A stretch of 49,323 bases of DNA. Origin: Lachnospiraceae bacterium (GTDB taxonomy: Bacteria > Bacillota > Clostridia > Lachnospirales > Lachnospiraceae). The stretch spans positions 1 through 49,323 of the forward strand of contig JAFXFO010000025.1 of assembly GCA_017520425.1 (NCBI GenBank), read 5' to 3'. A program made the position numbers and the translations under genes. Shown piece by piece: positions 2,955-47,123 of the stretch. The notes under the pieces were generated by a model, which was not told where the DNA came from, made no database searches, and worked only from the letters and a program-made list of their open reading frames with translations. Each line of letters starts with the position of its first letter. The first letter of the stretch is position 1.

Positions 2955-3097
2955 GTACCTGTTCAGAACCAAGCAGATTTGCGAAGGACTTTATGTTGAA
3001 TGCTTGCATTCATAAGTACAGTTCTTCGCAAATCTATTTGGCGAGAGCCAAACAACGAGGAAATGCAAAGCATTTTCGAGTGGTTCTGAACAGTTAC
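2955..3097 (+). repeat. CTTG-loop repeat element, copy 1 (MITE-like or structured RNA)
   Basis: Terminal inverted repeats of 17 bp (2955-2971 and 3081-3097, one mismatch) read GTAMCTGTTCAGAACCA. Inside, GATTTGCGAAG pairs with CTTCGCAAATC, the apical hairpin pairs TGAATG (2997-3002) with CATTCA (3007-3012) around CTTG, then follow TTTGGCGAGAGCC and a third hairpin AAATGC/GCATTT preceded by GGA. The same order of parts occurs at 45721-45871 (minus) and 46970-47123 (plus). It occupies most of the 310-base gap 2924-3233, which otherwise holds only the terminator of the next gene. Confidence 0.8.
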
Positions 3098-3186
3098 CGC
3101 AATTTTTAACTGATGTCTTCTGATACTAATTTATCAACAAAAAGCATCATAAGGGCATCATAATAATTAGGATTTTCTAAAAGAAA

Positions 3187-3216
3187 AACCTCTAATTATA
3201 TAGACGTAATTAGAGG
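3187..3216 (-). terminator. Rho-independent terminator of the engB-truA operon
   Basis: A perfect 10-bp stem (3189-3198 with 3207-3216) around an 8-base loop is followed, on the minus strand, by TTTTTCTTTT. It lies 18 bases past the stop of the last gene of the operon. Confidence 0.85.
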
Positions 3217-3233
3217 CCCTTTGGTTACAACAA

Positions 3234-4772
3234 TTATGTAATTTTTTTCAAGATAATTTTATTCTTCAAAAAAACGGCAGCACTATTCCAGCCTACTACT
3301 GCCAACGGAAGCATAACAAGAAAATACGTAAATACATATCTTGCATTTGCTTCCCATATAATGCTGAACAGAAAACCACCCAGAATAAACATTTCCGGAA
3401 GCGTCTCTGCGAATTTTCCTTTATATGATTTCTTCAGGAAGTACAACACTGTCCCCAAATAAACAATGCTCTGTAAAATGGATAAGTAAACCAATATATT
3501 TTCTTCATGTTCGGCAATAAACTCAGATAATCCTTTTATACTTTCTCCTTCATCCACTTCAATCAATTGTTCTGTATTAAAATAGGGTGCATTCCATTGT
3601 GTACAAATCTTTCTTTTATAGAAACTAACGGCACCTATGGGATTCTTCACAAAACCGGATAACTGTACTTTAAGTTGCTCCAATGCCTTCTCTTGGGTTA
3701 ATTCTCTATCGCAATCGTTGGCATAAAATAACGGAACACAATAATTATTAAACCATCCCGGTTTACTATCTCCCTCTATTGTTCCCATTGTTATCCAAGC
3801 CACACTGGGAATCCCGCCTTCTATTTCATATCCGCTTTTCAATGAATACATCCTTTCTATGCCTGCAGTTACAAACAAAGGAAGGATAAACGATAATATA
3901 CCTACAAATAATATCCATTTATTGCGACATTCAAAATAGCTAACTACCGAAACCAGTAATATTGCCAACAAAAATATCAACGCATGCTGCCTAAATATCA
4001 AACAAAAAATCGCTGCCAGAATTGAAATAATAGCATACTTGATTTTCTTCTTATCCAATATGCTAAAATAGTGCAAGAACAAAAACAGAAAGAAATAAAA
4101 CGGAATATCTCCATATACCCATGTACCTAATAACTGCAACGGTAATAATCCTAAAAAGAGCAAAGATCCCAGCAATCTCGTAACAACATCGTCTGTTAAA
4201 TCATCAATAAAACAACTTGCAAAATAAACAATCCCCATTATAAAAAAGATATTTATTACCTGTAATATTTGAAATCCAAACTGCCCACCACTCAATTTAA
4301 GAACCAGTTGCATATATAATATGTATCCCAGCTGCTGTGGATACATCATTACATATCCTCCCTTTGATAAATTAATATAATTATCCTCATTAAAGTATAA
4401 TGCTGCACTATATACCTGAATTTGGTCGGCAATAGGTGTTCGTGTCCCTCCAAGAAAAATCAGAAATGACACAACCCCCGTCAGAACAGCGATTCCCACT
4501 TGAATTAATTTATGGTATTTTGAAAGGAAGTCTGATATATGAGCATTTTTTCTTACAATAGACTTTATCCCCAAAAATAACATAATTAGTAATATAATAG
4601 CCATAATATGTATCAGCACATTGTCATTTTCCTTGTATATGGGCGCTCCATTCATAATCTCTGAAAAAGCTTCTCTTCCTCTTCTTTGAGTTTCTATTAT
4701 TGAGATCGCTGATAGAAATAACAGAATACCCACTAACATGATTTTTAAGCTTCCTCTTATCATCTTTAACAT
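3234..4772 (-). CDS. Polytopic membrane protein, GT-C glycosyltransferase-like
   Basis: A 512-residue protein with roughly 11-12 membrane helices. After the second helix pair comes a loop with TRTPIADQIQVY; an acidic residue in the first large outside loop followed by aromatic residues is how lipid-phosphate-sugar-dependent GT-C (GT39/ArnT-like) enzymes begin. A soluble part near residues 320-420 precedes three more helices and a basic end (KNKIILKKIT). I infer a role in transferring a sugar from a polyprenyl carrier to a surface polymer or protein, but no motif fixes this. It starts after AAGGGG and follows truA by 33 bases, and a strong terminator follows it. It could equally be an uncharacterised membrane protein of the same fold. 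Confidence 0.6.
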   Translation of the reverse strand: MLKMIRGSLKIMLVGILLFLSAISIIETQRRGREAFSEIMNGAPIYKENDNVLIHIMAIILLIMLFLGIKSIVRKNAHISDFLSKYHKLIQVGIAVLTGVVSFLIFLGGTRTPIADQIQVYSAALYFNEDNYINLSKGGYVMMYPQQLGYILYMQLVLKLSGGQFGFQILQVINIFFIMGIVYFASCFIDDLTDDVVTRLLGSLLFLGLLPLQLLGTWVYGDIPFYFFLFLFLHYFSILDKKKIKYAIISILAAIFCLIFRQHALIFLLAILLVSVVSYFECRNKWILFVGILSFILPLFVTAGIERMYSLKSGYEIEGGIPSVAWITMGTIEGDSKPGWFNNYCVPLFYANDCDRELTQEKALEQLKVQLSGFVKNPIGAVSFYKRKICTQWNAPYFNTEQLIEVDEGESIKGLSEFIAEHEENILVYLSILQSIVYLGTVLYFLKKSYKGKFAETLPEMFILGGFLFSIIWEANARYVFTYFLVMLPLAVVGWNSAAVFLKNKIILKKIT

Positions 4773-4805
4773 ATTTATTCCCCTTTATAGTCATACAACC
4801 AAATG

Positions 4806-5543
4806 CTAATAATACACTTCTTCCAGCACCAAGCCCTTTCCGGGTACCAGTTCTCCGGCTAATTCTCTGTTTTTTGCCAATAAAAGGTCTGGTATTGAAT
4901 GGGGAGTACGCTTCCCTTTTCCTACCTCTAATAGAGTACCTGTCAAAATCCGCACCATATGGTACAAGAAACCATTCCCTTCATAGATAAAGGTAATCAT
5001 GTCTCCTTCTTTATCAATACCAATCCGGTCAATCCTTCTTACCGTGGACTTCTTCCCTTTCTTGGTTGATGTAAAAGATTTAAAATCATGCTCACCCAGC
5101 AAATGTACTGCCGCCTCCTTCATAGCCTGTATATCCAGCTCCTCCGGTACGGTGTGCACATATCTACGCCAGAACACATTGGGAATGCTGCTGTTCCAAA
5201 CCCGATAAACATATCGTTTCCCCTTGGCATTGAGTCTGCTGTGAAAACGCTCCGGCACTTCTTCCGCTTCCACCACAGCAATATCCTCCGGTAAATACTG
5301 ATTGATATAAGTCAGCATTTCTTCTGTGGTCATGGTACAACCGGTGTGGAAATTGGCAATCTGTCCCAATGCATGTACACCGGCATCCGTCCTGCCGCTT
5401 CCCTGTATGGTGATTTCTTCCCCACACATGCGGCTAAGCAGTGTTTCAAACTTTCCCTGTATGGTATTGTCCGAGGTGTCCTGCTTCTGCCATCCCTGGT
5501 AGCGGGTTCCCTCATAGGTTATTTTAATACGGATATTCCTCAT
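4806..5543 (-). CDS. truA: tRNA pseudouridine(38-40) synthase TruA
   Basis: A 245-residue TruA of normal length. It isomerises uridines 38-40 in the anticodon stem-loop of many tRNAs. The catalytic Asp53 is in SGRTDAGVHALGQ, the N-terminal strand motif (YEGTRYQGWQ) binds RNA, and the C-terminal half contains the expected FLYHMVRILTGTLLEVG helix. It lies 19 bases downstream of the AEC transporter gene in the same direction. This is the housekeeping copy. Confidence 0.97.
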   Translation of the reverse strand: MRNIRIKITYEGTRYQGWQKQDTSDNTIQGKFETLLSRMCGEEITIQGSGRTDAGVHALGQIANFHTGCTMTTEEMLTYINQYLPEDIAVVEAEEVPERFHSRLNAKGKRYVYRVWNSSIPNVFWRRYVHTVPEELDIQAMKEAAVHLLGEHDFKSFTSTKKGKKSTVRRIDRIGIDKEGDMITFIYEGNGFLYHMVRILTGTLLEVGKGKRTPHSIPDLLLAKNRELAGELVPGKGLVLEEVYY

Positions 5544-5562
5544 AACACCCTTCCCTTAAACA

Positions 5563-6471
5563 TCATACTTTCAATAAAAAGGATACCAACGGCATGGTAA
5601 CTACTGCCAACAGGGTAGTAATGGTAACTCCCTGGGATGCCAGCTCATAATCCCCGCCATACTGCTGCGCCAGCATGGCGTTCATACTTCCCACCGGGGT
5701 AGAAAGCATAACCATACAAACACCTGTCAGCATGGGATTTAATCCCAGCAACTTAATCACACTGACTCCTGCAAGAGGAATCACCAATAACTTAATACCG
5801 GAAAACACCAGCATTCGTGCATTGCAAAACAGTTTCTTAAGATTCACCTTTGTCAGGGAATCACCAATAATCATCATACTTAAAGGTGCCGCCAGTCCGC
5901 TGACAGAATCCACTGCATTTTCTATCACGATGGGTATGGGCAACTTCGTCAAATAAATAAACAATGTTATTACGCAGGAAACTACTCCCACATTCAAAAT
6001 CTTTCGTAACCGGAAGCCAGATTTCTCTCCCTTCATAACGCTAATTCCGTAGGTGTAAATCAACACATTGAAAGGAATCAAAAACAGGGATGCATACAGA
6101 AGTGCTATCGTTCCGAACAAAGCGGCAATCACAGGAAAGCCCATAAATCCGACATTGGAGAATATGGTCATAGTCCTGTAAATACCATATTCCGACGCTT
6201 CCGCTTTCAGGATCATGGGAATAAAATATGCTATCAACATCAACACACCGAACATCGCCCATGCCAACACAAAAGTTTTCACAAACTCCATACCGCCGAT
6301 GGCCGATTCCTGATTAATACCGGAAGACAAAACCAATGCAGGATTGGCCACATTCAAAACCAATGCCGATATCCGCTTATTGGACTCGTCATTAAAAATC
6401 CCGCATTTTCTGCAGCATATACCTACCAGCATCAGGATAAATAATACCATCATTTGCTTTAATAAAATCAT
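5563..6471 (-). CDS. AEC-family (auxin efflux carrier-like) transporter
   Basis: A 302-residue protein with about ten membrane helices, the usual size of bacterial AEC permeases. It shows an inverted-repeat arrangement, with the N-terminal half carrying NVANPALVLSSG and the C-terminal half STPVGSMNAMLAQQYGGD, both with the helix-breaking prolines of the family. Characterised bacterial relatives move malate, malonate or other organic acids by proton or sodium coupling; the substrate here is unknown. Its ATG overlaps the TGA of engB by four bases (ATGA), so translation is probably coupled. Confidence 0.88.
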   Translation of the reverse strand: MILLKQMMVLFILMLVGICCRKCGIFNDESNKRISALVLNVANPALVLSSGINQESAIGGMEFVKTFVLAWAMFGVLMLIAYFIPMILKAEASEYGIYRTMTIFSNVGFMGFPVIAALFGTIALLYASLFLIPFNVLIYTYGISVMKGEKSGFRLRKILNVGVVSCVITLFIYLTKLPIPIVIENAVDSVSGLAAPLSMMIIGDSLTKVNLKKLFCNARMLVFSGIKLLVIPLAGVSVIKLLGLNPMLTGVCMVMLSTPVGSMNAMLAQQYGGDYELASQGVTITTLLAVVTMPLVSFLLKV

Positions 6472-7061
6472 GCATCTACCTCTATCAAACCATCAATGAT
6501 TTCGTAAATCTCTTCCCTGCCCTGTTTGGTGGTGGCAGAAAAAGGAATCATAACTGTACCTTTCTCCACATTCAGTGTCTCCCGAATCAGCTTCAGCTGC
6601 TTCTGAACCTGACTACGATTGATTTTGTCCAGCTTGGTAGCTATAATCACCGGGCTGTAACCATGGTCACAAATCCAATCATACATAATACAGTCATTTT
6701 CCGAAGGCTTATGACGGATATCAATTAACAGGAACACCACTTGAAGCTGCTTAGACTTATGCAGATAATCCTCTATCATCTTGCCCCACTGTGCCTTCAC
6801 CTTTTCATTAGCCTGGGCATAGCCATAACCCGGCAAATCCACAAAATAGATGGCATCATTTACATTATAAAAATTGATGGTCTGGGTCTTACCCGGCTGG
6901 GAACTGGTGCGGGCCAGGGACTTACGGTTCATCAATGCATTAATTAGAGATGACTTGCCCACATTACTCTTTCCTGCAAAAGCCACCTCCGGCTTGGTAT
7001 TCTCCGGCAATTTACTGGTTATTCCGCATACGGTTTCCAATCCTACATTCTTAATAATCAT
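6468..7061 (-). CDS. engB: Ribosome biogenesis GTPase EngB (YsxC/YihA)
   Basis: A 197-residue GTPase needed for assembly of the large ribosomal subunit. The G1 motif GKSNVGKS is at 30-37, G3 DLPG at 75-78 and G4 TKLD at 142-145. I set the start at 7061, where GGAG lies six bases upstream; the longer frame to 7079 runs back into the terminator hairpin and has no ribosome site. Position next to clpX is conserved in Firmicutes. It leads an operon with the AEC transporter, truA and the GT-C-like gene. Confidence 0.96.
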   Translation of the reverse strand: MIIKNVGLETVCGITSKLPENTKPEVAFAGKSNVGKSSLINALMNRKSLARTSSQPGKTQTINFYNVNDAIYFVDLPGYGYAQANEKVKAQWGKMIEDYLHKSKQLQVVFLLIDIRHKPSENDCIMYDWICDHGYSPVIIATKLDKINRSQVQKQLKLIRETLNVEKGTVMIPFSATTKQGREEIYEIIDGLIEVDA

Positions 7062-7078
7062 ATTTTTCTCTCCGTACA

Positions 7079-7105
7079 AAACGCCACCTTTATCAGGCGG
7101 CGTTT
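7079..7105 (-). terminator. Hairpin terminator between clpX and engB
   Basis: A 10-bp stem (7079-7088 with 7096-7105, one G-U pair in the minus-strand RNA) ends in TTTT on the minus strand, directly after the clpX stop. The T run is short, so some read-through into engB is likely. Confidence 0.6.
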
Positions 7106-7112
7106 ACAAATC

Positions 7113-8357
7113 TTATTCTTCCTCGCGGATGACGATGGGTTCACTGGTACCTTCTACAGCACCCTTTGTAATTACACATGCCTTAATGGACTCCTCGGAA
7201 GGGATCCGATACATTACATCCATCATAACATTTTCCATAATAGAACGCAATCCTCTTGCTCCAACCTTTCTCTCCAAGGCCTTCTGCGCAATGGTCTCAA
7301 TCGCATCCTCTTCAAAGGTAAGTTCTACATCGTCAAAATCAAAAAGCTTCTTATACTGCTTAATCAAAGCACTCTTAGGCTCTGTCAGAATCTTCATCAA
7401 GGCTTCCTTATCCAAGCCCTGCAAAGAAACATTAATGGGCACACGTCCTACAAACTCAGGAATCAAACCGAACTTCACCAAATCCTGGGGTGTTACTTCT
7501 GCCAGCAACTCACCGATTTCCTTGGTAGATTTCTGAGTAATCTCAGTATTGAAACCGATGGACTTTCTGTCCAGACGGGACTCAATAATCTTGTCCAAGC
7601 CATCAAACGCACCACTGCAGATAAACAAAATATTGGTGGTATCAATCTGAATCAACTCCTGATGAGGATGCTTTCTGCCGCCCTGAGGTGGCACGCTTGC
7701 CACGGTACCTTCCACGATCTTTAACAGTGCCTGCTGTACACCTTCACCGGATACATCTCTGGTAATGGAAACATTCTCACCCTTTTTGGTAATCTTATCA
7801 ATTTCATCGATATAAATAATACCGTACTGGGCTCTTTCCACATCATAATCTGCTGCCTGAATCAGCTTTAACAATATGTTCTCAACATCCTCGCCCACAT
7901 AGCCGGCCTCTGTCAAAGTGGTGGCATCTGCGATGGCAAAGGGTACATTGATTATCTTGGCAAGAGTCTGTGCCAGATAAGTCTTACCGGAACCGGTAGG
8001 TCCTATCATGATAATATTACTCTTCTGAAGCTCCACATCATCCAAATCCTTGGGAGCCATAACTCTCTTGTAATGATTGTAAACCGCTACGGACAATACC
8101 TTTTTCGCCTGTTCCTGACCGATTACATAATCGTCCAAAAACTTCTTGATTTCCATGGGCTTAATCAGGTTGATATCATGGGAAGGAGAGAAATCATCAT
8201 CCTCTTCCAACTCCTCTTCCAGAATATCCTCACAGATTTCAATACATTCATCACAAATATATACACCATTGGGACCCGCAATCAACTTGCGTACTTGGTT
8301 CTGTGTTTTATTACAAAAAGAACAGCGGACGTCACTCCCTATTGTTTTTCCTGCCAT
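7113..8357 (-). CDS. clpX: ATP-dependent Clp protease ATP-binding subunit ClpX
   Basis: A 414-residue AAA+ unfoldase that recognises tagged proteins and feeds them to ClpP. The N-terminal C4 zinc-binding domain has Cys12, Cys15, Cys35 and Cys38. Walker A is GPTGSGKT at 119-126, pore loop GYVG at 152-155, Walker B IIYIDEID near 180-187, and sensor 2 GARGLRS near 367. I chose the ATG at 8357 (MAGKT). A GTG at 8375 is in frame but sits in a hairpin with its possible ribosome site far away. It follows clpP by 63 bases, the standard order. Confidence 0.97.
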
Positions 8358-8372
8358 TTCTTTACCGATAAT

Positions 8373-8390
8373 CACCGGGACTTCCCGGTG
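8373..8390 (-). other. Perfect hairpin in the clpP-clpX gap
   Basis: CACCGGGA pairs exactly with TCCCGGTG around two bases, 15 bases before the clpX ATG. There is no T run, so it is more likely an RNA processing, stability or translation-control structure than a terminator. It covers the alternative GTG start. Confidence 0.55.
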
Positions 8391-8420
8391 TTATTCTCCC
8401 TTTCCTAAAATTCGTTCTGC

Positions 8421-9011
8421 TTATACAGAAGCATGTGAAGTAATCACCTTATCAATCAAACCATACTCACGTGCCTCTTCTGCGCTCTTCCAATTATCAC
8501 GCTCGGTATCAGCACAAATGGTCTCATAATCTCTTCCGGTATTCTCCGCCAGAATACGATTTAACTTTTCCTTGGTCTTCAAAATATGTCTTGCAGCAAT
8601 CTCAATCTCAGTTGCCTGACCCTTGGTACCGCCAAGAGGCTGGTGAATCATTACTTCTGCATTGGGAAGTGCATAACGCTTGCCCTTTGCGCCGCCTGCC
8701 AGAAGGAATGCCCCCATGCTGGCTGCCATACCGATACATACGGTAGAAACATCACACTTAATATACTGCATGGTATCATAAATCGCCATACCTGCGGTTA
8801 CGCTACCGCCGGGGCTGTTAATATACAAATGAATATCCTTCTCAGGATCCTCAGACTCTAAAAACAGAAGCTGTGCCACTACCAGACTGGCAGTCACTTC
8901 ATTTACTTCTTCTCCCAGAAAAATGATTCTGTCCTTTAATAATCTGGAGTAAATATCGTAGGATCTTTCACCCTTGCTTGTTTGTTCAATGACATAAGGT
9001 ACTAAACTCAT
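8421..9011 (-). CDS. clpP: ATP-dependent Clp protease proteolytic subunit ClpP
   Basis: A 196-residue serine protease subunit that forms the double heptameric barrel. The triad is Ser98 (GMAASMGA), His123 (MIHQPLGG) and Asp172 (ERDNW). The oligomer handle and head-domain motifs ([11 protein letters not shown]) are intact. The start at 9011 is supported by AGGAGG five bases upstream; the longer frame to 9035 has no such site. No CtsR-type operator was seen upstream. Confidence 0.97.
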
Positions 9012-9104
9012 AATTGCCTCCTCTTTGTCTAACATATACGGGTACCAACTTTACCCAATTTCCTTATTTATCATATCTTAGATAAACTCATTTTTCAAGA
9101 ATAA

Positions 9105-9136
9105 ACAGAGGATTTAAGAAAAACTTAATCCTCTGT
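9105..9136 (-). terminator. Terminator between tig and clpP
   Basis: ACAGAGGATTTAAG pairs with CTTAATCCTCTGT with one bulged base, loop AAAAA, and a TTTATTCTT tail on the minus strand. It separates the trigger factor transcript from clpPX. Confidence 0.7.
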
Positions 9137-9175
9137 TCGTACATTCCTTTATTTATCGACATTTATCGACAAACA

Positions 9176-10498
9176 CTACTCAGCGTCTGCCTCTGCCTTC
9201 TTTGCTTTTGCCTTTGCTTCCTTCGCATTTTCAACAACAAATTCAACTGCCTTGTTGATTGCCAAGTCTTCCATTACAGACTTCTTACCGCCTTCGCCGA
9301 GTAATTCCTTCACCTTGTCAGCTTCCATCATGTAGCTTGTTGCCATTCTGGTTACTTCTGCTTCGAATTCTTCTTCGGTTACGGTAATACCTTCAGCAGC
9401 TACTACTGCTTCCAATACCAGACGAGACTTGATTCTCTTCTCTGCCTGAGGCTTAATCTGCTCTAACAGCATCTGAGGAGTGGTACTGGTGAACTGCATG
9501 TACTGCTCCATTGAGACACCCTGAGACTGCATTCTCTGTGCGAATTCTTCTACCATCTGTCTCTGAGTGGTTTCTACCATAGCTTCCGGAATATCCATCT
9601 TAGCATCAGCAACTACTGCTGCCACTACTTCTTCTTCCTTAGCGCTCTTTGCAGCTGCGGTCTTTCTGTCTACAATCTTTGCCTTTACGCTTTCCTTGTA
9701 TTCTGCAAAAGTATCGTACTCAGATACTTCACTTGCGAAATCATCATCCAATTCAGGAAGTTCTTTTTCCTTGATTTCCTTAACAGTACACTTAAATACT
9801 GCCGCCTTGCCTGCAAGGTCTTCTGCCTGATAATCTTCAGGGAAGGTTACGTTTACGTCGGTCTCAACACCGATTTCAGCGCCTACAAGTGCTGCTTCAA
9901 ATCCGGGGATGAATGCACCGGAACCGATGGTCAGAGGATAATCCTCGCCCTTGCCGCCTTCAAATGCAACGCCGTCAACAAAACCTTCGAAATCGATAAC
10001 GGTCATATCGCCGTCCTTAACAGCTCTGTCAGTAACAGGGATAATTCTTGCTGCATTATCTCTTTCTCTTGCGATATCAGCTTCGATTTCTTCCTCGGTT
10101 ACATCGATATCCATCTTGTCAATCTTTACGCCCTTGTACTTACCTAAGGTAACTTCAGGCTTTAATGCTACTTCTGCAGTGTAGATAAAGGTCTTGCCTG
10201 ACTCTAACTGGATTACGTCAATCTTAGGAGAAGATACGATATCTTCGGTACACTCGTCCAAAGCCTTCTCATAGCTTTCAGAGATCAAGTCATTTGCAGC
10301 ATCCTCAAGGAATACACCCTTACCGTACATCTGCTCAATCATCTTACGAGGTGCTTTGCCCTTACGGAAACCGGGAATGCTGATTTTGTTCTTGCTCTTC
10401 TGATATGCGTTTTCAATCGCCTTTTCTAATTCTTCAGCTGCCACTTCAATAGTAAGCTTGGCCATATTGCCGTCTAATTTTTCTACCTGTAAACTCAT
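9176..10498 (-). CDS. tig: Trigger factor (ribosome-bound chaperone, peptidyl-prolyl isomerase)
   Basis: A 440-residue trigger factor of normal length. It binds the ribosome exit tunnel through the N-terminal GFRKGKAPRKMIEQMYG signature (about 44-60), followed by the FKBP-type isomerase domain (about 160-245, with VIDFEGFVDG) and the helical C-terminal chaperone domain. The tail is unusually rich in Ala, Lys and Glu (last 20 residues). Start at 10498 is the family start, with AGGAGG ten bases upstream; the extra 27 residues of the open frame are not part of the family. It heads the tig-clpP-clpX cluster. Confidence 0.97.
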   Translation of the reverse strand: MSLQVEKLDGNMAKLTIEVAAEELEKAIENAYQKSKNKISIPGFRKGKAPRKMIEQMYGKGVFLEDAANDLISESYEKALDECTEDIVSSPKIDVIQLESGKTFIYTAEVALKPEVTLGKYKGVKIDKMDIDVTEEEIEADIARERDNAARIIPVTDRAVKDGDMTVIDFEGFVDGVAFEGGKGEDYPLTIGSGAFIPGFEAALVGAEIGVETDVNVTFPEDYQAEDLAGKAAVFKCTVKEIKEKELPELDDDFASEVSEYDTFAEYKESVKAKIVDRKTAAAKSAKEEEVVAAVVADAKMDIPEAMVETTQRQMVEEFAQRMQSQGVSMEQYMQFTSTTPQMLLEQIKPQAEKRIKSRLVLEAVVAAEGITVTEEEFEAEVTRMATSYMMEADKVKELLGEGGKKSVMEDLAINKAVEFVVENAKEAKAKAKKAEADAE

Positions 10499-10585
10499 TG
10501 TTACATTTCCTCCTTTATTGCCCCTGTGTAGGCTGCATATATAAAAATACGTCCAAATTCTGAACATAGTCACAGTCATTTTACG

Positions 10586-10614
10586 ATTATAGCATATATG
10601 TTTAAAATCTGCAA
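10586..10614 (-). promoter_or_regulatory. Sigma-A promoter of tig (extended -10)
   Basis: On the minus strand TTGCAG (10609-10614), 17 bases, then TATAAT (10586-10591) preceded by TGC, giving an extended -10. Transcription would start about 95 bases before the tig start codon. Confidence 0.6.
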
Positions 10615-10671
10615 ATGTTTTTATAGCTTTTTTCCTTGATTTTCCTTATGTTTTCAAGAAAAAACTTAAAT

Positions 10672-11976: not shown

Positions 11977-11978
11977 AC

Positions 11979-37264: not shown

Positions 37265-37281
37265 TTACTTCTTCCCAAAAT

Positions 37282-38130: not shown

Positions 38131-38178
38131 CTTACTTTTCCTCTCTCTTCTCCAAATTTCCTCTTACCTTAATTCTTC

Positions 38179-38723: not shown

Positions 38724-38744
38724 ATAAAAACCTCCTCGCATACC

Positions 38745-38783
38745 GTATATACATAGTATATACTCAGTACTCAAAAATATCAA
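38745..38783 (-). promoter_or_regulatory. mazEF promoter with overlapping operator palindrome
   Basis: On the minus strand TTGATA (38778-38783), 17 bases, TATACT (38755-38760). The palindrome GTATATAC, three bases, GTATATAC (38745-38763) covers the -10 box. This fits autorepression by the MazE-MazF complex. Confidence 0.8.
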
Positions 38784-38856
38784 TACATTCTCATAAAAAG
38801 CTAACGAAGCATCATTTTTTCTTAATTACACCATCACTTCTTCTCCACTTTTAACA

Positions 38857-39450: not shown

Positions 39451-39503
39451 TTTATTTCACCTCGTAAACCCGAAAACTTACTTCCACTTATCCATTTATT
39501 ATC

Positions 39504-39549
39504 ATTATTGGGCACCAGTTCACAAAAATCTACATTAATGCCCAATAAT
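39504..39549. other. Inverted repeat downstream of the DUF6985-like gene
   Basis: ATTATTGGGC (39504-39513) and GCCCAATAAT (39540-39549) are exact reverse complements 26 bases apart. There is no T run, so it may be a transcript-end structure or a protein site. Confidence 0.4.
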
Positions 39550-39564
39550 TCACTTTTAATAGAA

Positions 39565-40029
39565 TCAATCCAACCAAACGCAATCAACAATATCCCTATC
39601 CGCCTTTACAAATTTCTCATCTATAAAGACAGCCGCCCAACCATGATCTTCATCCCATGGACAATTAAGCACTAAGATTACGCACACAGGAACATTTTGT
39701 GACTCATACGGGGGATTACCGGTTTTACTTCTTGCATATATTGCATCTTCCAAAGCATAAAGAGTAACATCCGTGCCTATAAACTTTATAAGGTCTTCTG
39801 CAGAACTTATTTCAGGCCAATATTCTTTACTCTCCTCCTCATCATCAGGCCCCCACGCTTCATACATCTCGTCATAATAAAGACGTATAAAAGCCTCCAG
39901 CATTTCAGTTTCCAGCTGTGGAGTCCACTTGTCTATCAGTTTTCTACAATATATCTCACCCTGTTCTACATCCCCGGCAAACTCATCAATTTCAAAATCA
40001 TTGGGGTTTAATAATAAATTATTTTGCAT
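39565..40029 (-). CDS. Acidic DUF6985-like protein of unknown function
   Basis: A 154-residue soluble, strongly acidic protein (many Glu/Asp and Trp/Tyr, for example AFIRLYYDEMYEAWGPDDEEESKEYW). The second half (LYALEDAIYARSK ... CPWDEDHGWAAVFIDEKFVKADRDIVD) resembles the DUF6985 family, found among polymorphic-toxin immunity-type loci; this assignment is from memory. No toxin lies next to it. AGGAG precedes the ATG. It is in the accessory block together with the DUF3267 and DUF2130 genes; the base composition is lower in G+C than the housekeeping genes. Confidence 0.6.
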   Translation of the reverse strand: MQNNLLLNPNDFEIDEFAGDVEQGEIYCRKLIDKWTPQLETEMLEAFIRLYYDEMYEAWGPDDEEESKEYWPEISSAEDLIKFIGTDVTLYALEDAIYARSKTGNPPYESQNVPVCVILVLNCPWDEDHGWAAVFIDEKFVKADRDIVDCVWLD

Positions 40030-40058
40030 TCTTTTTCTCCTATATTTTTGATTGTGTG

Positions 40059-41450
40059 TTATTCCCCCTGCTTCAGCTCATCAAACATAGCCTTTACTGA
40101 GGGTGCATTCTTCGTAAGCTTCTTAATACTGAGCTCATCCGCCTTATTATTTGCCAATCGCAAATTATTCTCGGAAGAAAGAAGTGCAGCTTTTGTCTTT
40201 TGAAGATGATCTATAGTCTTATCGATTTCATCAATGGCGGTTGCGAATCTCTCACTGGCCAGACGATAGTTACGGGCAAAGCCTTCCTTGAAGGCATTCA
40301 TATTTTCTTCGAAATGAACAATATCCAGCTGCTGATTTCTTACGATTTGAAGTTCCTGCCTATACTGCAGGGAATTCAGTGCCGCATTTTTAAGAAGCGT
40401 AATCATAGGGATAAAAAACTGGGGACGAATCACATACATCTTAGGATATCGGTAAGAAACATCCACAATACCCCCATTGTATAGATCATTATCCATTTCC
40501 AGCAAGGAAACCAGAATGGCGTATTCGCAGCCCTTTTCCTTACGGTCCTTGTCCAATTCTTTAAAAAAGTCCTCATTCTTATGTTTCGTGGCAGTAGTAT
40601 CGGCCTCATTCTTCATCTCAAACATAATGGAAATAAATTCTGTACCATCATCCCCGTACTCTCTGTAAATGAAGTCACCCTTACTTCCGCTTCGTGCGTC
40701 ATTATCTTTCTCAAAGTAAGCATTGGGGAATGCTGTCATACGTATAGAGTTAAACTGTGTGAGGCAATGTTGTTCCAGACTCTCACCGATCATCTTGGTA
40801 GACTGGCGGGCCTTGAAGTCCTTGTAGTATTCTATCTGCTCATCCTTAAGCTTAAGCTTTTCTTCATATTGCTCTTTTAAAGACTGCTCACTTAAACGGC
40901 TCTCATCTTCCTTGCTTTTTAGCTCGCCTTTCAGTTCTACAATCTCCATGGCTTTGTTGTTTAATTCAACCGTCTTTGCCTCTACCGCTTGTGCAACAGC
41001 AAGTTTTTTCTCCGTTTCACTACTTTCCAATTTAGCCTTCAGTTCGGCAATTATTTTGTCTCTGTCTGCTATCTCAGCTTCCTTTTGTATGAGATTTTCA
41101 GAATGCACTTTTGTCTCTTTCGCAAACTCCACATTCTTTTTTTCCAAAGCTTCTGACACAGCAAGGCTTTTTACCGTTTCGCTGGTCTCTAATTTGGCCT
41201 GAAGTTCCAAAATCGTACGCTCTTTTTCTACAAGCTCTTCCTCTTTTTGGGCAAGACTTGCGGCATACTCCTTTTCTTCTTCCAGACGAATCAATTGAAG
41301 CTCCTGCTCCCGCTTTGCCTCCAATTCCTTCTCCCGTCGTTCCAGCTCGATGGCAAACTCTTTATCCCTTACCTGTGTGGCGATCTGATTATATCCATTT
41401 TCATCTACCTGAAATACTTCTCCGCACTTCGGGCATCTTATTTCCTGCAT
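40059..41450 (-). CDS. DUF2130-family coiled-coil protein
   Basis: A 463-residue soluble protein. The N-terminus carries one CxxC pair (IRCPKCGEVFQVDE), a likely zinc ribbon half-site. Residues about 30-215 are a long Glu/Lys coiled coil with near-repeated units (a TLELQAKLETSETVKSLAVSEALE type block appears twice more). The C-terminal part (about 220-420) is the DUF2130 domain, with EMKNEADTT, VSLLEMDND and YPKMYVIRPQFFIP; its acidic-Lys pattern recalls a restriction-endonuclease-like fold, which is speculative. Start at 41450 is chosen to place CPKCG normally. Function unknown. Confidence 0.85.
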   Translation of the reverse strand: MQEIRCPKCGEVFQVDENGYNQIATQVRDKEFAIELERREKELEAKREQELQLIRLEEEKEYAASLAQKEEELVEKERTILELQAKLETSETVKSLAVSEALEKKNVEFAKETKVHSENLIQKEAEIADRDKIIAELKAKLESSETEKKLAVAQAVEAKTVELNNKAMEIVELKGELKSKEDESRLSEQSLKEQYEEKLKLKDEQIEYYKDFKARQSTKMIGESLEQHCLTQFNSIRMTAFPNAYFEKDNDARSGSKGDFIYREYGDDGTEFISIMFEMKNEADTTATKHKNEDFFKELDKDRKEKGCEYAILVSLLEMDNDLYNGGIVDVSYRYPKMYVIRPQFFIPMITLLKNAALNSLQYRQELQIVRNQQLDIVHFEENMNAFKEGFARNYRLASERFATAIDEIDKTIDHLQKTKAALLSSENNLRLANNKADELSIKKLTKNAPSVKAMFDELKQGE

Positions 41451-41545
41451 GCTTCCCTTTTCTCCTCTCTGTGACAAACTAGTTCTTTCATTAAGGAATC
41501 CTCATGAGTCTTCCGCTTTCATGTCAATCCAATACCATGTTACTC

Positions 41546-42904
41546 TTACTGGCTAATCCATTTTGTACGTTCCAACAGCTTATCCATCACCAACGCATTC
41601 AGCTTTTCGTCGAAATCATTTTTATCCACTTCCATTCCATCGATTGCATAATAGGGGCACTTTTCCGTACTATCCTCGGGTATCAATTCTTCCCTGACAA
41701 ACAATGTGGAAACCGTCTCCGTTGTTCCGTCTGAGTTGTATTTAAAAAGCGTATAGCTTCTTGCACCGGATTGATCATACTGTCTTACCATAATGCCATC
41801 CTGCAGAGGATAATCTCTACAAGACATCTCCGCCGAATCACTGTTCCAACAGTATATGCGTCCTTCTTCGTAATGAAACACTCCATTATAGCCACATGGG
41901 TCATCCGCCAATTGCACCAGTAGCTCACTGCTACCATCAGCGTTCACATCTAAATATGTATACTCATATTGCAGCATATCATCTTGAAAATCCGGAATAT
42001 ACCACATATCTGTCTGCGATTCATCCAAGAGCGCTCTATCCCCTTGTAAAAATCTGGTATAAGCTGTCATTGCGCCATCCCTCTTATGCAACACAAACAT
42101 AGAATCATTGTACTGCATTCCGGAGTCCAATAGCTTCTCTATGACGTCAACCGTAATAATTTCCGGTAGTGTAATATCGTTCTTATCGCCTTCATGGTTA
42201 TATAAGACCAGGTAATCCCCTACAAAATCCAGCCGATTGTAACGCCCTATTTCTTTCGATTGCAAGTATGCTATAACCTCACCTTCGTAAGAGTTTTCCT
42301 TTTTCTCCAGATAATCATATCTGTTTACCATATATCCTACCATCAGAAAACCATCTACCTTAGAATGTATACCAAAATAACCACAACCTACAAACCAATC
42401 CGATTCACACTGATAAAAATCCGGTATCTCCAATAAGTCTACCGCCTCTTCCAAACTGATTTTCTTGCACTCCTTGATTTCTTTAAATTCCACACACATC
42501 CGGCCATCAATACCACCTGTTATAAAAGTAGTATCTGCCACTACATAGGCGAATTCTCCGAGTCGTAACTCCACCGGCAGCTCAATGTCATTCTCATTGG
42601 TCCAGACATCTTGCATCGATTTCCCCGCTTCGTAGTATGTATAATAGGTTCCGTCATCCTCCTCATTTTCCGGCACATAGTCCCATTTTTCCCGCTTAAC
42701 TGCTACAAAGGAAGCACCGGATGCTTGTTTTTCATATAGTTCATCCGTCCTATAGACCTTATTTTCTTTGTTCTCTTTCTTTTCCTTGGTTTCGTCTATT
42801 AATGATTCTTCCTTATCGTCCCCATCCAAAACCTGCTTATTTTGGCACCCGGTCACAAGGACCATAAGTAACATACACACGAATAATAATTTTACATATT
42901 TCAT
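41546..42904 (-). CDS. Secreted lipoprotein of unknown function
   Basis: A 452-residue lipoprotein. Signal peptide with lipobox LVTGC (Cys about 20), then a charged linker (residues about 25-50, Lys/Glu-rich) and a large acidic, Tyr-rich outside domain. The segment YTYLDVNADGSSELLVQLADD near 318-338 looks like an FG-GAP or calcium-loop-type repeat, and similar 'DVNADG.SELL' signatures occur in many Clostridial surface lipoproteins. No enzyme motif found. It lies 27 bases downstream of the 159-residue unknown gene in the same direction. Confidence 0.75.
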   Translation of the reverse strand: MKYVKLLFVCMLLMVLVTGCQNKQVLDGDDKEESLIDETKEKKENKENKVYRTDELYEKQASGASFVAVKREKWDYVPENEEDDGTYYTYYEAGKSMQDVWTNENDIELPVELRLGEFAYVVADTTFITGGIDGRMCVEFKEIKECKKISLEEAVDLLEIPDFYQCESDWFVGCGYFGIHSKVDGFLMVGYMVNRYDYLEKKENSYEGEVIAYLQSKEIGRYNRLDFVGDYLVLYNHEGDKNDITLPEIITVDVIEKLLDSGMQYNDSMFVLHKRDGAMTAYTRFLQGDRALLDESQTDMWYIPDFQDDMLQYEYTYLDVNADGSSELLVQLADDPCGYNGVFHYEEGRIYCWNSDSAEMSCRDYPLQDGIMVRQYDQSGARSYTLFKYNSDGTTETVSTLFVREELIPEDSTEKCPYYAIDGMEVDKNDFDEKLNALVMDKLLERTKWISQ

Positions 42905-42931
42905 TCTATTCCCTCCGTAAATTCATCCACC

Positions 42932-43411
42932 TCAACGCCTGTCATAATCATCAAACCATTGGGCTACCAGAAACGTTTCCATCTTCTGTTTCGAGAGGGC
43001 AATAGCTTTTGCCAAAGCCTCTTCAGCAGTTGGGAATATAATAGGATTTAATGCACTGCTGCCTGTGCTGTCATCACGCAGTTCATAGCTGGTCAACTTA
43101 TTTTCCCAAGATTGAATCAAGTACCTCTTCGGTTTATTCGAAATAATCACATAACCATTTTCTTTGTGTCTTCCCTTGGCTATGTTGCCGTCCGAAAAGT
43201 TCTCATTCAAGAAGCTCACTTTCCCCCATTTTACAATCGCATACCGCTTATAAACCACCAAAACAAAGCCTGTAAAGGCGTTCCACATATTAACAGCTTT
43301 CACCTCATCATACGTACAAAGATAGGTGAAAGCAGTGCCTTTGAAAAAATAGTTCTTATCACTCTCCTCAAAGATATCTATTTTCTCTTCCGGATAATCA
43401 TAATACTTCAT
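42932..43411 (-). CDS. Hypothetical soluble protein, overlaps racemase-family gene
   Basis: A 159-residue protein rich in aromatic residues with no signal or membrane helix. I recognise no family. Its ATG at 43411 lies 14 bases inside the end of the racemase-family gene in another frame, so expression is probably coupled to it. The protein has alternating strands (FVLVVYKRYAIVKWGKVSF and NGYVIISNKPKRYLIQSW) and a C-terminal helix (TAEEALAKAIALSKQKMETFLVA). The next gene downstream is the unknown lipoprotein. Confidence 0.6.
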   Translation of the reverse strand: MKYYDYPEEKIDIFEESDKNYFFKGTAFTYLCTYDEVKAVNMWNAFTGFVLVVYKRYAIVKWGKVSFLNENFSDGNIAKGRHKENGYVIISNKPKRYLIQSWENKLTSYELRDDSTGSSALNPIIFPTAEEALAKAIALSKQKMETFLVAQWFDDYDRR

Positions 43412-44099
43412 CTAAAGCCAGCTCCTTCAGTCTTTCAATATGTATGGCCACACTATCCAGACAGGGCAGGACACAGTTTTCATCATTCAGAAGCAAAGGA
43501 ATCTCCGTACAGCCCAGCACCACTGCCTCTATTCCGTAGGCCTGCTGCATGTCCATTATGATGGCATTGAACTCCTGTCGGGTGGACTCCTTCACGATTC
43601 CCAGTTCCAGCTCCTCCAAAATCCTTTTGGCTATCAGCTCTCTGCCTTCCCGAGCCGGCACGATTACCTCTATCCCGGCTCTTTGCATGTCCTTTTTCAT
43701 AAAGTCCTGCTCCATGGTAGCCATGGTTCCCAGTAAGCCCACCTTCTTATAGCCCCGCTTCATCGCTTCTTTACATACCGCTTGGGGGATACTTACCAAG
43801 GAAACCCCAGTATTCTTTTCCACCGCATCAAAGACCATATGCATGGTTACAGCAGTTAAGGATATTACCTCGGCGCCGCCTGCTGCCAGGTTATGGACCT
43901 TTTCCGAAAGGTAGTCTGCCAATTCTTTATTCTGTCCGGCAGAAACTAACTCCCATGCCTTACGGAAATTCACGCTTTCTATGGCAATCTCCGGCATATT
44001 TTTGCCACCGGTGGTCTCATCAATTCCTGCATTCAATTCTTTATAATACATTAGGGTGGATTCCGGACCGGTTCCACCCACTAAACCTATCTTCTTCAT
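43398..44099 (-). CDS. Aspartate/glutamate racemase family, first Cys replaced
   Basis: A 233-residue protein of the Asp/Glu racemase fold (MKKIGLVGGTGPESTLMYY at the start). PLP-independent racemases use two cysteines. The second is present as Cys197 in VLGCTE, but the first position, normally the Cys of a CNTxH motif, is Ala83 in LTAVTMH. Single-cysteine members can act as stereospecific racemases, isomerases or other lyases, so the reaction is open. It begins immediately after the metallo-hydrolase stop (TAAATG), and its end overlaps the next gene by 14 bases, giving an operon. Confidence 0.85.
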   Translation of the reverse strand: MKKIGLVGGTGPESTLMYYKELNAGIDETTGGKNMPEIAIESVNFRKAWELVSAGQNKELADYLSEKVHNLAAGGAEVISLTAVTMHMVFDAVEKNTGVSLVSIPQAVCKEAMKRGYKKVGLLGTMATMEQDFMKKDMQRAGIEVIVPAREGRELIAKRILEELELGIVKESTRQEFNAIIMDMQQAYGIEAVVLGCTEIPLLLNDENCVLPCLDSVAIHIERLKELALDEVL

Positions 44100-45698
44100 T
44101 TACTTCTCCAACTTATCACAGAGTGCAATCACCTGGTCTGCCATCTTAGCCAAATCCTTGTTGGCATAGCCCTCGGACTTCTTGATAATGGCAAGCAGTC
44201 TCTGACCTGCAGCCAACAGACGGGCATAGGCACCGGTAGCAGGCTGTACCTTCTTCTCCTTGGGAATAGGGCTTGCTTCGAATTCCAGCTGATTGGTCAA
44301 AAGATTAAATACGGTACCGCTGTAAGGGGCATAGGCGCGCTGACCATGCTCCACCTTTAAGCATTCCACAAAATTGGTACACACGCTGTCTTCACCATGC
44401 ACTACAAATACTTTTCTGGGCTTTTCCTTAAAGCCCTCCAGCCACTCAATCAAGCCTTCCTTATCCGCATGACCACTTAAGCCGCGCATACTCATAATAT
44501 GTGCCCGTACCTCGATGGACTCACCGAAAAGCTTCACTTCCTTGGCACCCTCTAAAATCGCACGGCCCAAAGTCCCCACGGACTGGTATCCTACGAAAAG
44601 CACGGTACATTCCGGTCTCCATAAGTTGTGCTTCAGATGATGTCTGATACGACCTGCCTCACACATACCGGAAGCGGAAAGGATGACCTTGGGCATCTCA
44701 TCGAAATTGATGGCCTTGGACTCATCACTGGTGATGGAAAGACGCAGTCCCGCAAAGGAAATGGGGTTGATGCCCTCCCGCACATATTCCATAGCCTCTT
44801 CATCGAAGCACTCGTAACGGTTCTCCGTGAACACACTGGTAGCTTCCACCGCCATGGGGCTATCCACGTAAACCGGGAAATTCTCGTGTCCCTTTATCAA
44901 TTTATTCACCTTAATCTGGCGCAGGAAATACAGCATCTCCTGAGTACGACCTACCGCAAAAGAAGGAATCACCACATTACCGCCTCTGTCGAAGGTTTCC
45001 TGTATAATGGCCGCCAGCTCTTTCACATAATCCAGACGTTCCTTGTCATGAAGTCTGTCCCCGTAGGTGGACTCCATAATCACATAATCCGCTTCCTCGG
45101 TAAAGCTGGGGTCCTTTAAAAGAGGCTGATTCTTGTTTCCGATATCTCCGGAAAATACCAGTTTCTTGGTCACACCGTTTTCCGTAGCCCAGACCTCGAT
45201 GCTGGCAGAACCCAGTAAATGTCCGATATCCGTAAAACGAATCTTCACCCCTTCGCAAATCTCTATCACATCGTTGTAATGGCAGGGTACGATTTTCTTG
45301 ATACAGCCGTCCGCATCTTCCATAGTGAAAAGCGGCTCTACCAGCTGGGCTCCTGCCTTACGCTTCAGCTTACGGTTCTTCCACTCTGCTTCCATCATCT
45401 GGATATGGGCACAGTCACGAAGCATGATACCGCACAAATCTGCGGAAGCATCGGTAGTAAAAATCTGTCCTCTGAAACCTCTTGCGTACAAAAGCGGCAA
45501 CATACCGGAATGGTCCACATGGGCATGGGTCAAAAGCACATAATCAATCATGGACTCTGCTACCGGCAGTTCTGCATTCTCAAACAGGTTGATTCCCTGC
45601 TCCATACCGTAGTCTACTAAAATATACTTGCCTCCTACTTCCAGGCAATGACAACTGCCTGTCACCTCGTGAGCAGCACCAATAAACGTAAGCTTCAT
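44100..45698 (-). CDS. Beta-CASP metallo-beta-lactamase-fold hydrolase (RNA-type)
   Basis: A 532-residue protein: metallo-beta-lactamase fold with HAHVDH at 58-63 (motif II), SGDIG (motif III region), a beta-CASP insert, and late motifs VILSASGMCEAGRIRHHLK and LSGHADKEGL, the pattern of YSH1/CPSF-like nucleases. Relatives cut RNA. This is not RNase J: the N-terminus and C-terminal extension differ, and the tail (about 460-532) is a short helical addition. Start at 45698 has GGAGG seven bases upstream. It is the first gene of an operon with the racemase-family gene. Confidence 0.88.
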   Translation of the reverse strand: MKLTFIGAAHEVTGSCHCLEVGGKYILVDYGMEQGINLFENAELPVAESMIDYVLLTHAHVDHSGMLPLLYARGFRGQIFTTDASADLCGIMLRDCAHIQMMEAEWKNRKLKRKAGAQLVEPLFTMEDADGCIKKIVPCHYNDVIEICEGVKIRFTDIGHLLGSASIEVWATENGVTKKLVFSGDIGNKNQPLLKDPSFTEEADYVIMESTYGDRLHDKERLDYVKELAAIIQETFDRGGNVVIPSFAVGRTQEMLYFLRQIKVNKLIKGHENFPVYVDSPMAVEATSVFTENRYECFDEEAMEYVREGINPISFAGLRLSITSDESKAINFDEMPKVILSASGMCEAGRIRHHLKHNLWRPECTVLFVGYQSVGTLGRAILEGAKEVKLFGESIEVRAHIMSMRGLSGHADKEGLIEWLEGFKEKPRKVFVVHGEDSVCTNFVECLKVEHGQRAYAPYSGTVFNLLTNQLEFEASPIPKEKKVQPATGAYARLLAAGQRLLAIIKKSEGYANKDLAKMADQVIALCDKLEK

Positions 45699-45720
45699 AG
45701 CAATCCCTCCATTTACTCTA

Positions 45721-45871
45721 TAACTATTCAGACCATACATTCACAAAATCGCCTCTACGAGGCTTTCCTTTTGTTCATGTATGCTTCTCGCCATATAAAT
45801 TTATAAAAGTAGTCCTATACAAGCAAGCTTGTAAGTCCTATTTCATAAATTTGCATGGCTCTGAATAGTTT
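45721..45871 (-). repeat. CTTG-loop repeat element, copy 2 (MITE-like or structured RNA)
   Basis: Same order of parts as 2955-3097 and 46970-47123, here in minus orientation: terminal repeats AACTATTCAGA(G)CCAT (45721-45736 and 45855-45870), apical hairpin TACAAG (45818-45823 on the plus strand) pairing with CTTGTA (45828-45833) around CTTG on the minus strand, then ATATGGCGAGAAGC and the GGAAA-bulged hairpin GCCTC/GAGGC. It lies 23 bases upstream of the metallo-hydrolase start, so on the minus strand it could be transcribed as the leader of that gene. The rest of 45699-45950 holds no other feature. Confidence 0.8.
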
Positions 45872-45950
45872 CATTTTACCACAGAAACTGCCTCTATGCA
45901 ATCAATACAAAAAATGGTATGATACTACAGAAGGAGCGTAGCAAACCATT

Positions 45951-46964
45951 ATGACAGATACTTTTCATACCAGACATTTTAACAGCATACAGGCTTTACG
46001 TGGTATCACCGCACTGTTTGTGGCATTGGAGCATGTCCGATTCTTAAACTGCGGTGCTTTTGGTGTGGACATCTTCTTTGTCATCAGTGGTTTCATGGTC
46101 ATGTTTTCTACCCATAAGGATACCAGGCACTTTTTAGGCAAGCGCTTTATCCGTATCTATCCGTTATACGCCCTTGTTACTCTGGGGACTTATTTTTTAC
46201 TGCTGCTTTTCCCCGGTATGTTCCATTTGACCAAGGCAGACCCTGTATCCTTACTTAAGAGCCTGTTGTTCATCCCTTTTGAAATCAGTCCGGGCATCAT
46301 CCAGCCTTTGGTAAGGGTAGGCTGGACCATCAATTATGAGGTCCTGCTTTATGTACTGTTTGCCTTGGCCTGTCGGTTGAGTCATCGCTACAGAGGTCTG
46401 ATTTGCAGCGGTTTTCTGGTTATTTTGATGGTACTGGCACATACCCTGCCGGTGGATAGTATTATCCTTGCTTTTTACGGGGACTATATCCTGCTGGAGT
46501 TTATCTTCGGTATGCTTTTATACTATGTGATGAGCAAGGTTTATGTTCCTCTCAGCAATAAAAAGTACACTACTCTTGCGGCTTATCTTTCTGTGCCTGC
46601 CGTATTGGTGCTGTTTGGAGTGTTGGCCTATACCAAGCAAAATGTACCCCTGATTCCTTTTGGTCGTGCCGTTTACTGGGGCCTTCCTGCATTGCTTATC
46701 GTGACCTTGACCTTTATCATGGACACCAAACTCACCACGCCAAAGCCCTTGGTATACCTGGGGAATATCAGCTTTTCCGTATTCTTGCTCCATTACTATC
46801 CGCTTATGTTTATTGACCGTAAAATCTACAATCTGGAGCATTTCACTCCCATGGCCCTCCCGGTGACCATCTGCGGATTGCTGATAGTCATACTTATAGC
46901 TTCCGTAAGCTATGTCCTGATTGAGAAACGTTTCACAGGATATTTGCGCAAGTTTTTCAAATAA
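45951..46964 (+). CDS. Acyltransferase 3 family membrane protein
   Basis: A 337-residue protein with about ten membrane helices. The family start is clear: IQALRGITALFVALEHV with the catalytic-site His after the Arg, followed by GVDIFFVISGFMV (about 37-49), RIYPLYAL and YLGNISFSVFLLHYYPLMF. Such enzymes put acyl groups on exopolysaccharide, peptidoglycan or other envelope sugars. The only ribosome-like site, AAGGAG, is 14 bases upstream, which is rather far; TATGAT at 45918-45923 may be a -10 without a clear -35. The gene is flanked on both sides by copies of the CTTG-loop repeat, in opposite orientations. Confidence 0.9.
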   Translation: MTDTFHTRHFNSIQALRGITALFVALEHVRFLNCGAFGVDIFFVISGFMVMFSTHKDTRHFLGKRFIRIYPLYALVTLGTYFLLLLFPGMFHLTKADPVSLLKSLLFIPFEISPGIIQPLVRVGWTINYEVLLYVLFALACRLSHRYRGLICSGFLVILMVLAHTLPVDSIILAFYGDYILLEFIFGMLLYYVMSKVYVPLSNKKYTTLAAYLSVPAVLVLFGVLAYTKQNVPLIPFGRAVYWGLPALLIVTLTFIMDTKLTTPKPLVYLGNISFSVFLLHYYPLMFIDRKIYNLEHFTPMALPVTICGLLIVILIASVSYVLIEKRFTGYLRKFFK

Positions 46965-46969
46965 TTTTT

Positions 46970-47123
46970 GTAACTATTCAGAGCCATGCGAATTTTCGAA
47001 GACAGACTGAGTAAGCTTGCTTACAGAAGGCTGTTCTCGAAAATTCATATGGCGTGAAGCACTCATAAGCAAAAGGAAAGCCGCGCAGCGGCAGTTTTGC
47101 GCATGAGGGCTCTGAATAGTTAC
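46970..47123 (+). repeat. CTTG-loop repeat element, copy 3 (MITE-like or structured RNA)
   Basis: Terminal repeats GTAACTATTCAGAGCC (46970-46985) and the exact reverse complement (47108-47123). Then GAATTTTCGA (46990-46999) pairs with TCGAAAATTC (47037-47046), apical hairpin GTAAG-CTTG-CTTAC (47011-47024), ATATGGCGTGAAGC, and GGAAA before hairpin GCCGC/GCGGC inside CAAAA/TTTTG. It begins five bases after the acyltransferase stop and ends in a T run (AATTTTTTATT), so it may also serve as a terminator. It fills more than half of the gap 46965-47253. Confidence 0.85.

Follow-up and report, generated by a model that had tools for sequence, protein, structure and literature searches.

Several families of short bacterial repeats, among them Correia/NEMIS, ERIC, RUP, YPAL and QMITE2, carry terminal repeats, are flanked by target duplications and give transcripts with a stable fold, as described in the sections drawn on here of two accounts (PMC2229807, PMC10969869). 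The bcr1 repeat of the Bacillus cereus group (~150-167 bp) has a predicted conserved structure according to the cited portion of PMC2267715, while the Rfam family Clostridiales-1 (RF01699) is listed in the relevant part of Weinberg 2010 (PMC2864571) as probably RNA and probably not cis-regulatory. Ends that begin with GTAA and 8-bp target duplications are given for the IS66 family of insertion sequences in the excerpt of PMC11946415 used here. Here we analyse a dispersed, non-coding element of ~155 bp that is present in three copies in a 49,323-nt stretch of Lachnospiraceae bacterium DNA (the window; contig JAFXFO010000025.1 of assembly GCA_017520425.1, 2.9 Mb in 42 contigs). We consider it probable that these elements are miniature inverted-repeat transposable elements (MITEs) with IS66-type ends and a covarying core related to Clostridiales-1, for which an IS66 transposase would act in trans and whose fold would be that of an RNA.

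The copies fold as a three-way junction: the element ends form the closing stem P1, P2 is a long stem with a G-CTTG-C hairpin cap, and the second stem, P3, contains an internal loop and carries a hairpin at its apex. An earlier interpretation of the same DNA made without database searches (the sequence-only reading) had placed the three copies where we find them (Table 1), and it gave their apical stems around CTTG and their third stems as we do, the third hairpin of the copy at 2955..3097 being AAATGC/GCATTT. It had also proposed a covariance model and a covariation test. Our model, R1, was built from 10 full-length copies, all from the window's own genome; these were the cleanest of the 13 copies then known, with L007 and L013 omitted for their insertions along with the divergent copy at 2955. 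The alignment was made with the structure-blind program MAFFT and the structure was folded from one of its 10 rows, so that a control in which the structure is slid along the alignment is tilted in the structure's favour. In this alignment 93.1% of cells are paired, double-sided changes occur in 26 of 61 pairs, and there are 53 compensated cells compared with 15.3 expected. The covariation score of 0.283 (0.104 when shuffled) was matched in 0 of 500 shuffles, and slid registers gave 0.05-0.08. Covariation is thus above the shuffled background and copies are found genome-wide.

The claim that paired changes keep the fold while the sequence differs is further borne out by an alignment-free comparison across three sets: among the 69 copies whose loop was usable, 62 have a left P2 arm for which no other copy's right arm is a better fit than their own. 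Between 20 copies from a closed genome of the same genus (G006), identity in the P2 arms is only 57-60%, whereas the left end (87%), the apex (84%) and P3 together with the right end (78%) are better conserved. The apical loop, described earlier as invariant, is CTTG in most copies, with CTCG, CTGG, CCTG and TTTA also present family-wide. Among 97 copies, the element ends carry 101 double-sided paired changes compared with 16.5 in shuffles (maximum 32), a count into which subfamily-wide changes enter repeatedly. In L044, L039 and L281 the end sequence is altered and the pairing kept, which suggests that pairing outlasts the transposon-end sequence; in L045, L052, L053 and L075, 3-5 of 12 end positions are unpaired. 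Among copies that include L040, L037 and L064, a tandem G·A (ATGAGCA/TGCGAAT) forms the internal loop of P3 in many, and in others these positions are fully paired (ATTCGCA/TGCGAAT). L007 and L013 from the window's genome and L114, L117 and L119 from G006 have an additional hairpin, inserted at similar positions in P3.

Searches with R1 return 20 sense copies of at least 49 bits in the window's own genome (40 rows in total, including weaker matches and antisense echoes) and 74 rows, including 4 antisense echoes of other rows, in the closed 4.1-Mb genome G006. Within the genus 38 of 61 genomes, own genome included, have matches, as do 39 of 150 genomes sampled across the family. A strict DNA pattern run over a species-genome collection found 14 loci, all titled Lachnospiraceae, and the window element had no match in a phage collection. 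Some copies are adjacent head to tail, in places with one half missing (L273, G006:C1:1317500-1318200; L274; L003/L012, C9:1038-1262 of the window's genome), which suggests slippage or recombination between ends. An RT-5 RNA (RF03026, 52.8 bits, cut-off 45.7) lies directly beside one copy in the window's genome (L011, 1663-1775, minus strand).

The terminal inverted repeats of the element are transposon ends. Within a set of 84 sense copies (21 from the window's genome, 30 from G006 and 33 others), 31 have intact GTAAC...GTTAC ends, and the test for target duplications was run on these. Perfect 8-bp duplications flank 9 of the 31, compared with 0.29 in shuffles (maximum 3), and allowing up to one mismatch raises the number to 13; exact duplications numbered two or fewer at every other width from 2 to 12. 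Short dispersed copies, and terminal inverted repeats with target duplications of fixed length, are as expected of a MITE. Ends in common with an autonomous element, which are likewise expected, were found in G006. In this genome three matches to the IS66 transposase domain were found, two of which (L166 and L167) are copies, 99.8% identical, of an 1817-bp insertion sequence with a single 485-aa open reading frame (ORF; PF03050 match at 1.2e-42). Perfect 8-bp duplications are present at both of its sites, and the ends of L166, GTAACTATTCAGCACC and GTAACTATTCAGAACC, differ from each other at 1 of 16 positions. The small elements match this insertion sequence in the terminal 16-18 bp only. Given near-identical 16-bp ends, 8-bp duplications and nothing else in common, the elements look like non-autonomous passengers of IS66. 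They have the GTAA ends and 8-bp duplications of that family and encode no IS66 transposase, so that at ~155 bp each can be at most a passenger. For the sequence-only reading, exact identity to the ends of a known insertion sequence would have counted against selection on the fold; the ends are almost those of an IS66-family element.

Of 32 IS66 loci examined with 1.5-kb flanks, a length that limits what absence at the other 27 can mean, five carry the motif GTAACWNTTCAG, all of them scoring 136-148 bits; a single end was seen at L221 and L224, and the ends at L222 are without a duplication (2 of 8). The G006 insertion sequence also matches 6 plasmid records, over ~5% of its length in the five listed, and two of these are annotated as IS66 transposases.

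The sequence-only reading had recognised no named family. On sequence comparison the element core is, however, homologous to RF01699, below the gathering cut-off of 48 bits: the window copies at 45720 and 46970 score 38.3 bits (full length) and 28.9 bits, align to model positions 1-166 (E 1.9e-6 and 6.5e-4) and keep the GCUUGC loop. There is no RF01699 match to the copy at 2955 and none above cut-off in the window's genome. In the reciprocal search R1 matches 14 of 30 RF01699 loci at E <= 1e-3. An extra 3' hairpin of RF01699 (GGATTGTGGGAG..CAATCC), present in canonical loci, corresponds to 33 model positions that are deleted in the aligned window copy. The Rfam family itself was detected in 141 of 299 genomes sampled family-wide, nearly all of different genera (129 above cut-off), and in 28 of 196 sampled across the order.

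Canonical Clostridiales-1 copies bear mobility marks of their own. An end pattern could be placed in 34 of 70 loci above cut-off, several of them from the same genome, with consensus ends GATRCCAGGGTCAAAAGG... and ...ACATC, the right end lying beyond the Rfam model. Exact duplications flank these 34 copies at 7 bp in 17 cases (1.3 expected) and at 8 bp in 6 (0.17 expected). The closed genome G407 holds 100 matches to the canonical ends when up to one mismatch is allowed, and a reversed control has none there. One core is therefore combined with two unrelated sets of ends, GTAAC with 8-bp and GATRCC with mostly 7-bp duplications. In the closed genome G418 RF01699 matches are present with zero matches to GATRCC-type ends, so further end types may exist. 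A locus in the window's genome (L032, C21:177445-177573) is RF01699-like at 27 bits, with ends of a quite different sequence, CTACGAGCAGAGC and GCTCTGCGAGTAG, and a partly repeated P3, a hint of further end types on the same core. Inspection by eye of three closed genomes for an autonomous partner of the GATRCC ends revealed no insertion-sequence-like end pair bar one 2.1-kb pair in G407; this candidate was set aside, its two long frames not being transposase-like (by eye, no family search) and neighbouring small elements accounting for the pair.

Four derivatives of 69-91 bp in G407 and G368 (L268, L270, L271 and L272) have canonical ends and lack P2 and/or P3. Their flanks, compared by eye, match over 7 or 8 bases in three and at 5 of 7 in the fourth; L270 and L271 are similar, non-identical deleted forms at different sites. 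These four hint that the fold is perhaps not entirely needed for movement.

To decide between folding of a single strand and a palindrome process in double-stranded DNA, we compared the two wobble-like mismatches at P2 positions between Watson-Crick pairs. Usable loops were present in 132 of 146 distinct sequences. In unique contexts G·T outnumbers A·C by 74 to 27 (p=1.6e-6, a guide only since the contexts are not fully independent), with 21:7 in G006, 22:6 in the others and 12:3 in canonical copies. Within the 84-copy set, copies antisense to both neighbours give 14:4, sense copies 24:10 and the rest 18:9. Since the asymmetry is kept in antisense copies, it is a property of the element rather than of the host gene, and folding of one strand appears to be under selection, with RNA as the simplest form. 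At the level of sequence, such selection is supported by covariation, by self-complementary hypervariable stems and by the one-strand G·T excess; that the selected form is RNA we infer. Here the sequence-only reading, which proposed selection on an RNA or single-stranded DNA and not simple copying, holds for the fold; on the copying it is right only in part, as 8-bp duplications and IS66-like ends show copies spread by transposition. We also asked whether P2 is copied from its surroundings. The longest exact match averaged 8.15 bases in a copy's own 1.5-kb flanks and 8.26 in those of other loci, and matches of at least 12 bases were found in 1 of 82 and 9 of 1211 comparisons, respectively (82 copies). 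Copying from the neighbourhood, as distinct from distant targets, is rejected.

Genes around the copies were called by a simple longest-ORF rule, under which L035 is flagged as lying inside an ORF. Between codirectional genes, 40 copies of the 84-copy set are in sense and 18 in antisense orientation (p=0.0027), the rest being in divergent (10), convergent (7) or incomplete (9) contexts. Sense copies often end 20-65 bases ahead of a start codon.

In the mechanism that we favour, an IS66-type transposase supplied in trans would recognise the ends and insert the element into AT-rich intergenic DNA. Transcribed by read-through from neighbouring genes or from an unrecognised promoter, the core would then fold as RNA, with selection acting on the fold and not on the sequence of the stems. 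As the likeliest role we tentatively suggest, giving it well short of an even chance, a folded module in leaders and intercistronic gaps that is processed by RNase or shields message ends, through which insertions would be tolerated and copies would persist. A function in leaders only was considered and rejected, since the canonical set is unbiased in orientation and the wobble excess extends to antisense copies. It is possible, though we would not put it higher than that, that Clostridiales-1 as a whole is a selfish RNA module and not a host RNA gene: one core, carried by at least two unrelated sets of transposon ends and moved by different transposases through much of Lachnospiraceae, whose folded sense strand would be selected because it acts as RNA, though DNA transposition should not need it.

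Several observations weigh against the mechanism that we favour. The duplications of the three window copies have decayed, with 6, 3 and 6 of 8 positions alike from left to right (CTCTATTT and CGCAATTT flank the first; the first two were compared by eye); these copies are older, and it is from the family that we infer their insertion. The 53 of 84 copies without intact ends stood outside the duplication test. No PF03050 match was found in the 42-contig assembly of the window's genome, and the link to IS66 is therefore one of family and not of co-residence. Copies from the same genome show a weak wobble excess (19:11, p=0.1). The ends of the 97 copies also carry 102 one-sided and 24 double-sided unpaired changes. 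Of the canonical RF01699 loci, 36 of 70 remained unparsed, and 29 canonical copies show no orientation bias (8 sense and 7 antisense, with 6 divergent, 5 convergent and 3 incomplete), which speaks against a role in mRNA only.

The usual understanding of Clostridiales-1, a stand-alone non-coding RNA gene family scattered by ordinary duplication, would account for the covarying fold and the strand asymmetry, agrees with the cited part of its listing as probably RNA and probably not cis-regulatory (Weinberg 2010, PMC2864571), and could draw on L281 and L044, which have lost the transposon-end sequence and yet keep P1 paired. We consider it very unlikely, and largely refuted as a full account, in view of target duplications of characteristic length in both branches, the 74 model rows (4 of them antisense echoes) in one closed genome and the ends held in common with an IS66 element. 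The fold might alternatively be needed as single-stranded DNA of one strand during transposition or replication, with any RNA incidental. This agrees with the asymmetry being kept in copies antisense to genes (14:4), and we regard it as unlikely without dismissing it: inverted repeats with target duplications are the marks of DDE (double-stranded) transposition and are not known from Y1/HUH elements, and the 69-91 bp derivatives that lack P2 and/or P3, three with matching flanks, point weakly the same way, as they could have arisen by deletion after insertion. Palindromes of the IS200/IS605 or REP type moved by a Y1 transposase come to mind because of hairpins with a conserved tetraloop, and the sequence-only reading had raised a transposase acting on single-stranded DNA; such elements, including the REP/RAYT class, are not known to have terminal inverted repeats or target duplications, so that the inverted repeats and 8-bp duplications found here make this explanation barely credible.

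Paired changes could, on the other hand, be mutational in origin, if template switching within imperfect palindromes uses one arm to rewrite the other, with the fold itself unselected. Clustered double-sided changes (GTAACTA to GCATTTA in L044, five in L039) have this appearance, as does the replacement of the P3 tandem G·A by perfect pairs in several copies. However, correction in double-stranded DNA predicts equal numbers of G·T and A·C, and 74:27 is observed; moreover, P2 varies (0.57-0.60 identity) while the left end, the apex and P3 with the right end are better conserved. Some of the paired changes could be products of template switching, but the strand asymmetry argues against it as the whole account, which we disfavour and rate as quite unlikely. 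Our preferred explanation remains a MITE with IS66-type ends around a core whose fold is under selection.

Features of the window are collected in Table 1. The terminal repeat CTRTTCAGARCC occurs 6 times with at most one mismatch, compared with 0.66 expected, a number reached in 0 of 100 shuffles. A scan of the window with Rfam at gathering threshold gave only a tRNA, and microRNA and other Rfam matches at E 0.1-10 in the window or its copies were judged to be chance. The minus-strand copy lies directly upstream of a beta-CASP gene, the longest-ORF call for which (44100-45740) starts within the element. Between the inverted copies at 45720 and 46968 lies an acyltransferase gene (PF01757; segment 45721-47123), and this segment is wholly missing between the beta-CASP gene and the tRNA in the relatives G077, G074 and G032. 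A composite transposon made of the two copies and this gene was considered and set aside: no duplication was seen by eye at the outer flanks, and divergence of the intergenic DNA prevents a clean empty site from being read; joint transposition is therefore not claimed.

Table 1. Copies of the element in the window and the parts of its rightmost, complete copy
Feature	Position	Strand	Remarks
Copy 1, divergent subfamily	2955..3097	+	Ends GTACC..GTTAC; R1 match 2953-3097, 82.3 bits
Copy 2	45720..45874	-	R1 match, 154.8 bits
Copy 3, complete element	46970..47123	+	Ends GTAAC..GTTAC; R1 match 46968-47123, 173.7 bits; itself a model row
Copy 3, left terminal inverted repeat / P1 5' arm	46970..46985	+	GTAACTATTCAGAGCC
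Copy 3, P2 arm	46983..47053	+	Hypervariable, self-complementary stem
Copy 3, apical CTTG loop	47016..47019	+	GCTTGC
Copy 3, P3 arm	47060..47107	+	Apical hairpin GCCGC/GCGGC; counterpart of the Clostridiales-1 ATGAGCA..TGCGAAT arm
Copy 3, right terminal inverted repeat / P1 3' arm	47108..47123	+	GGCTCTGAATAGTTAC

A literature search, which covered few subscription papers and leaves priority unproven, returned nothing on the end sequences, on MITEs of Lachnospiraceae, on duplications at IS66 MITEs or on structured RNA combined with mobile elements, and IS66 is not named in the main texts of PMC2229807 and PMC10969869. As far as these searches show, what is chiefly new is the tie of an Rfam family to mobility and the presence of one core with two sets of ends. 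That Clostridiales-1 bears mobility marks in both of the branches examined changes how its copies are to be read and why the family covaries. It also provides a case of a DNA-transposon passenger that keeps an RNA-like fold under selection on one strand, its long stem being free to drift. Since the element is defined, and natural variants and a candidate transposase are available, the role of a MITE transcript can now be tested.

Set beside known systems, the element agrees with the IS66 family in GTAA ends and 8-bp duplications. It differs in that the family encodes a transposase and the small element none, and in that published IS66 ends, in the cited portion of PMC11946415, begin GTAAGCG while those of the element begin GTAACTA. 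With Clostridiales-1 it has in common a homologous fold, the GCUUGC loop, the ATGAGCA / TGCGAAT arm of P3 and a multi-copy presence in many Lachnospiraceae, whereas the canonical ends are GATRCC with mostly 7-bp duplications and those of the element GTAAC with 8-bp duplications. The repeat bcr1 is likewise mobile, and it resembles the element in size and in having a predicted structure, as far as its partial description goes; it belongs to another host group, and the likeness drawn here is one of description. By analogy, the element may well work like other structured bacterial MITEs. From the sections consulted, Correia/NEMIS, ERIC, RUP, YPAL and QMITE2 are alike in being short, with terminal repeats, target duplications and a fold, and RUP has ends in common with the insertion sequence IS630-Spn1, much as the small element has with IS66. 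In the same sections most structured bacterial MITEs have 5'TA3' ends and long stem-loops, whereas the element described here is a covarying three-way junction whose core is joined to two unrelated sets of ends.

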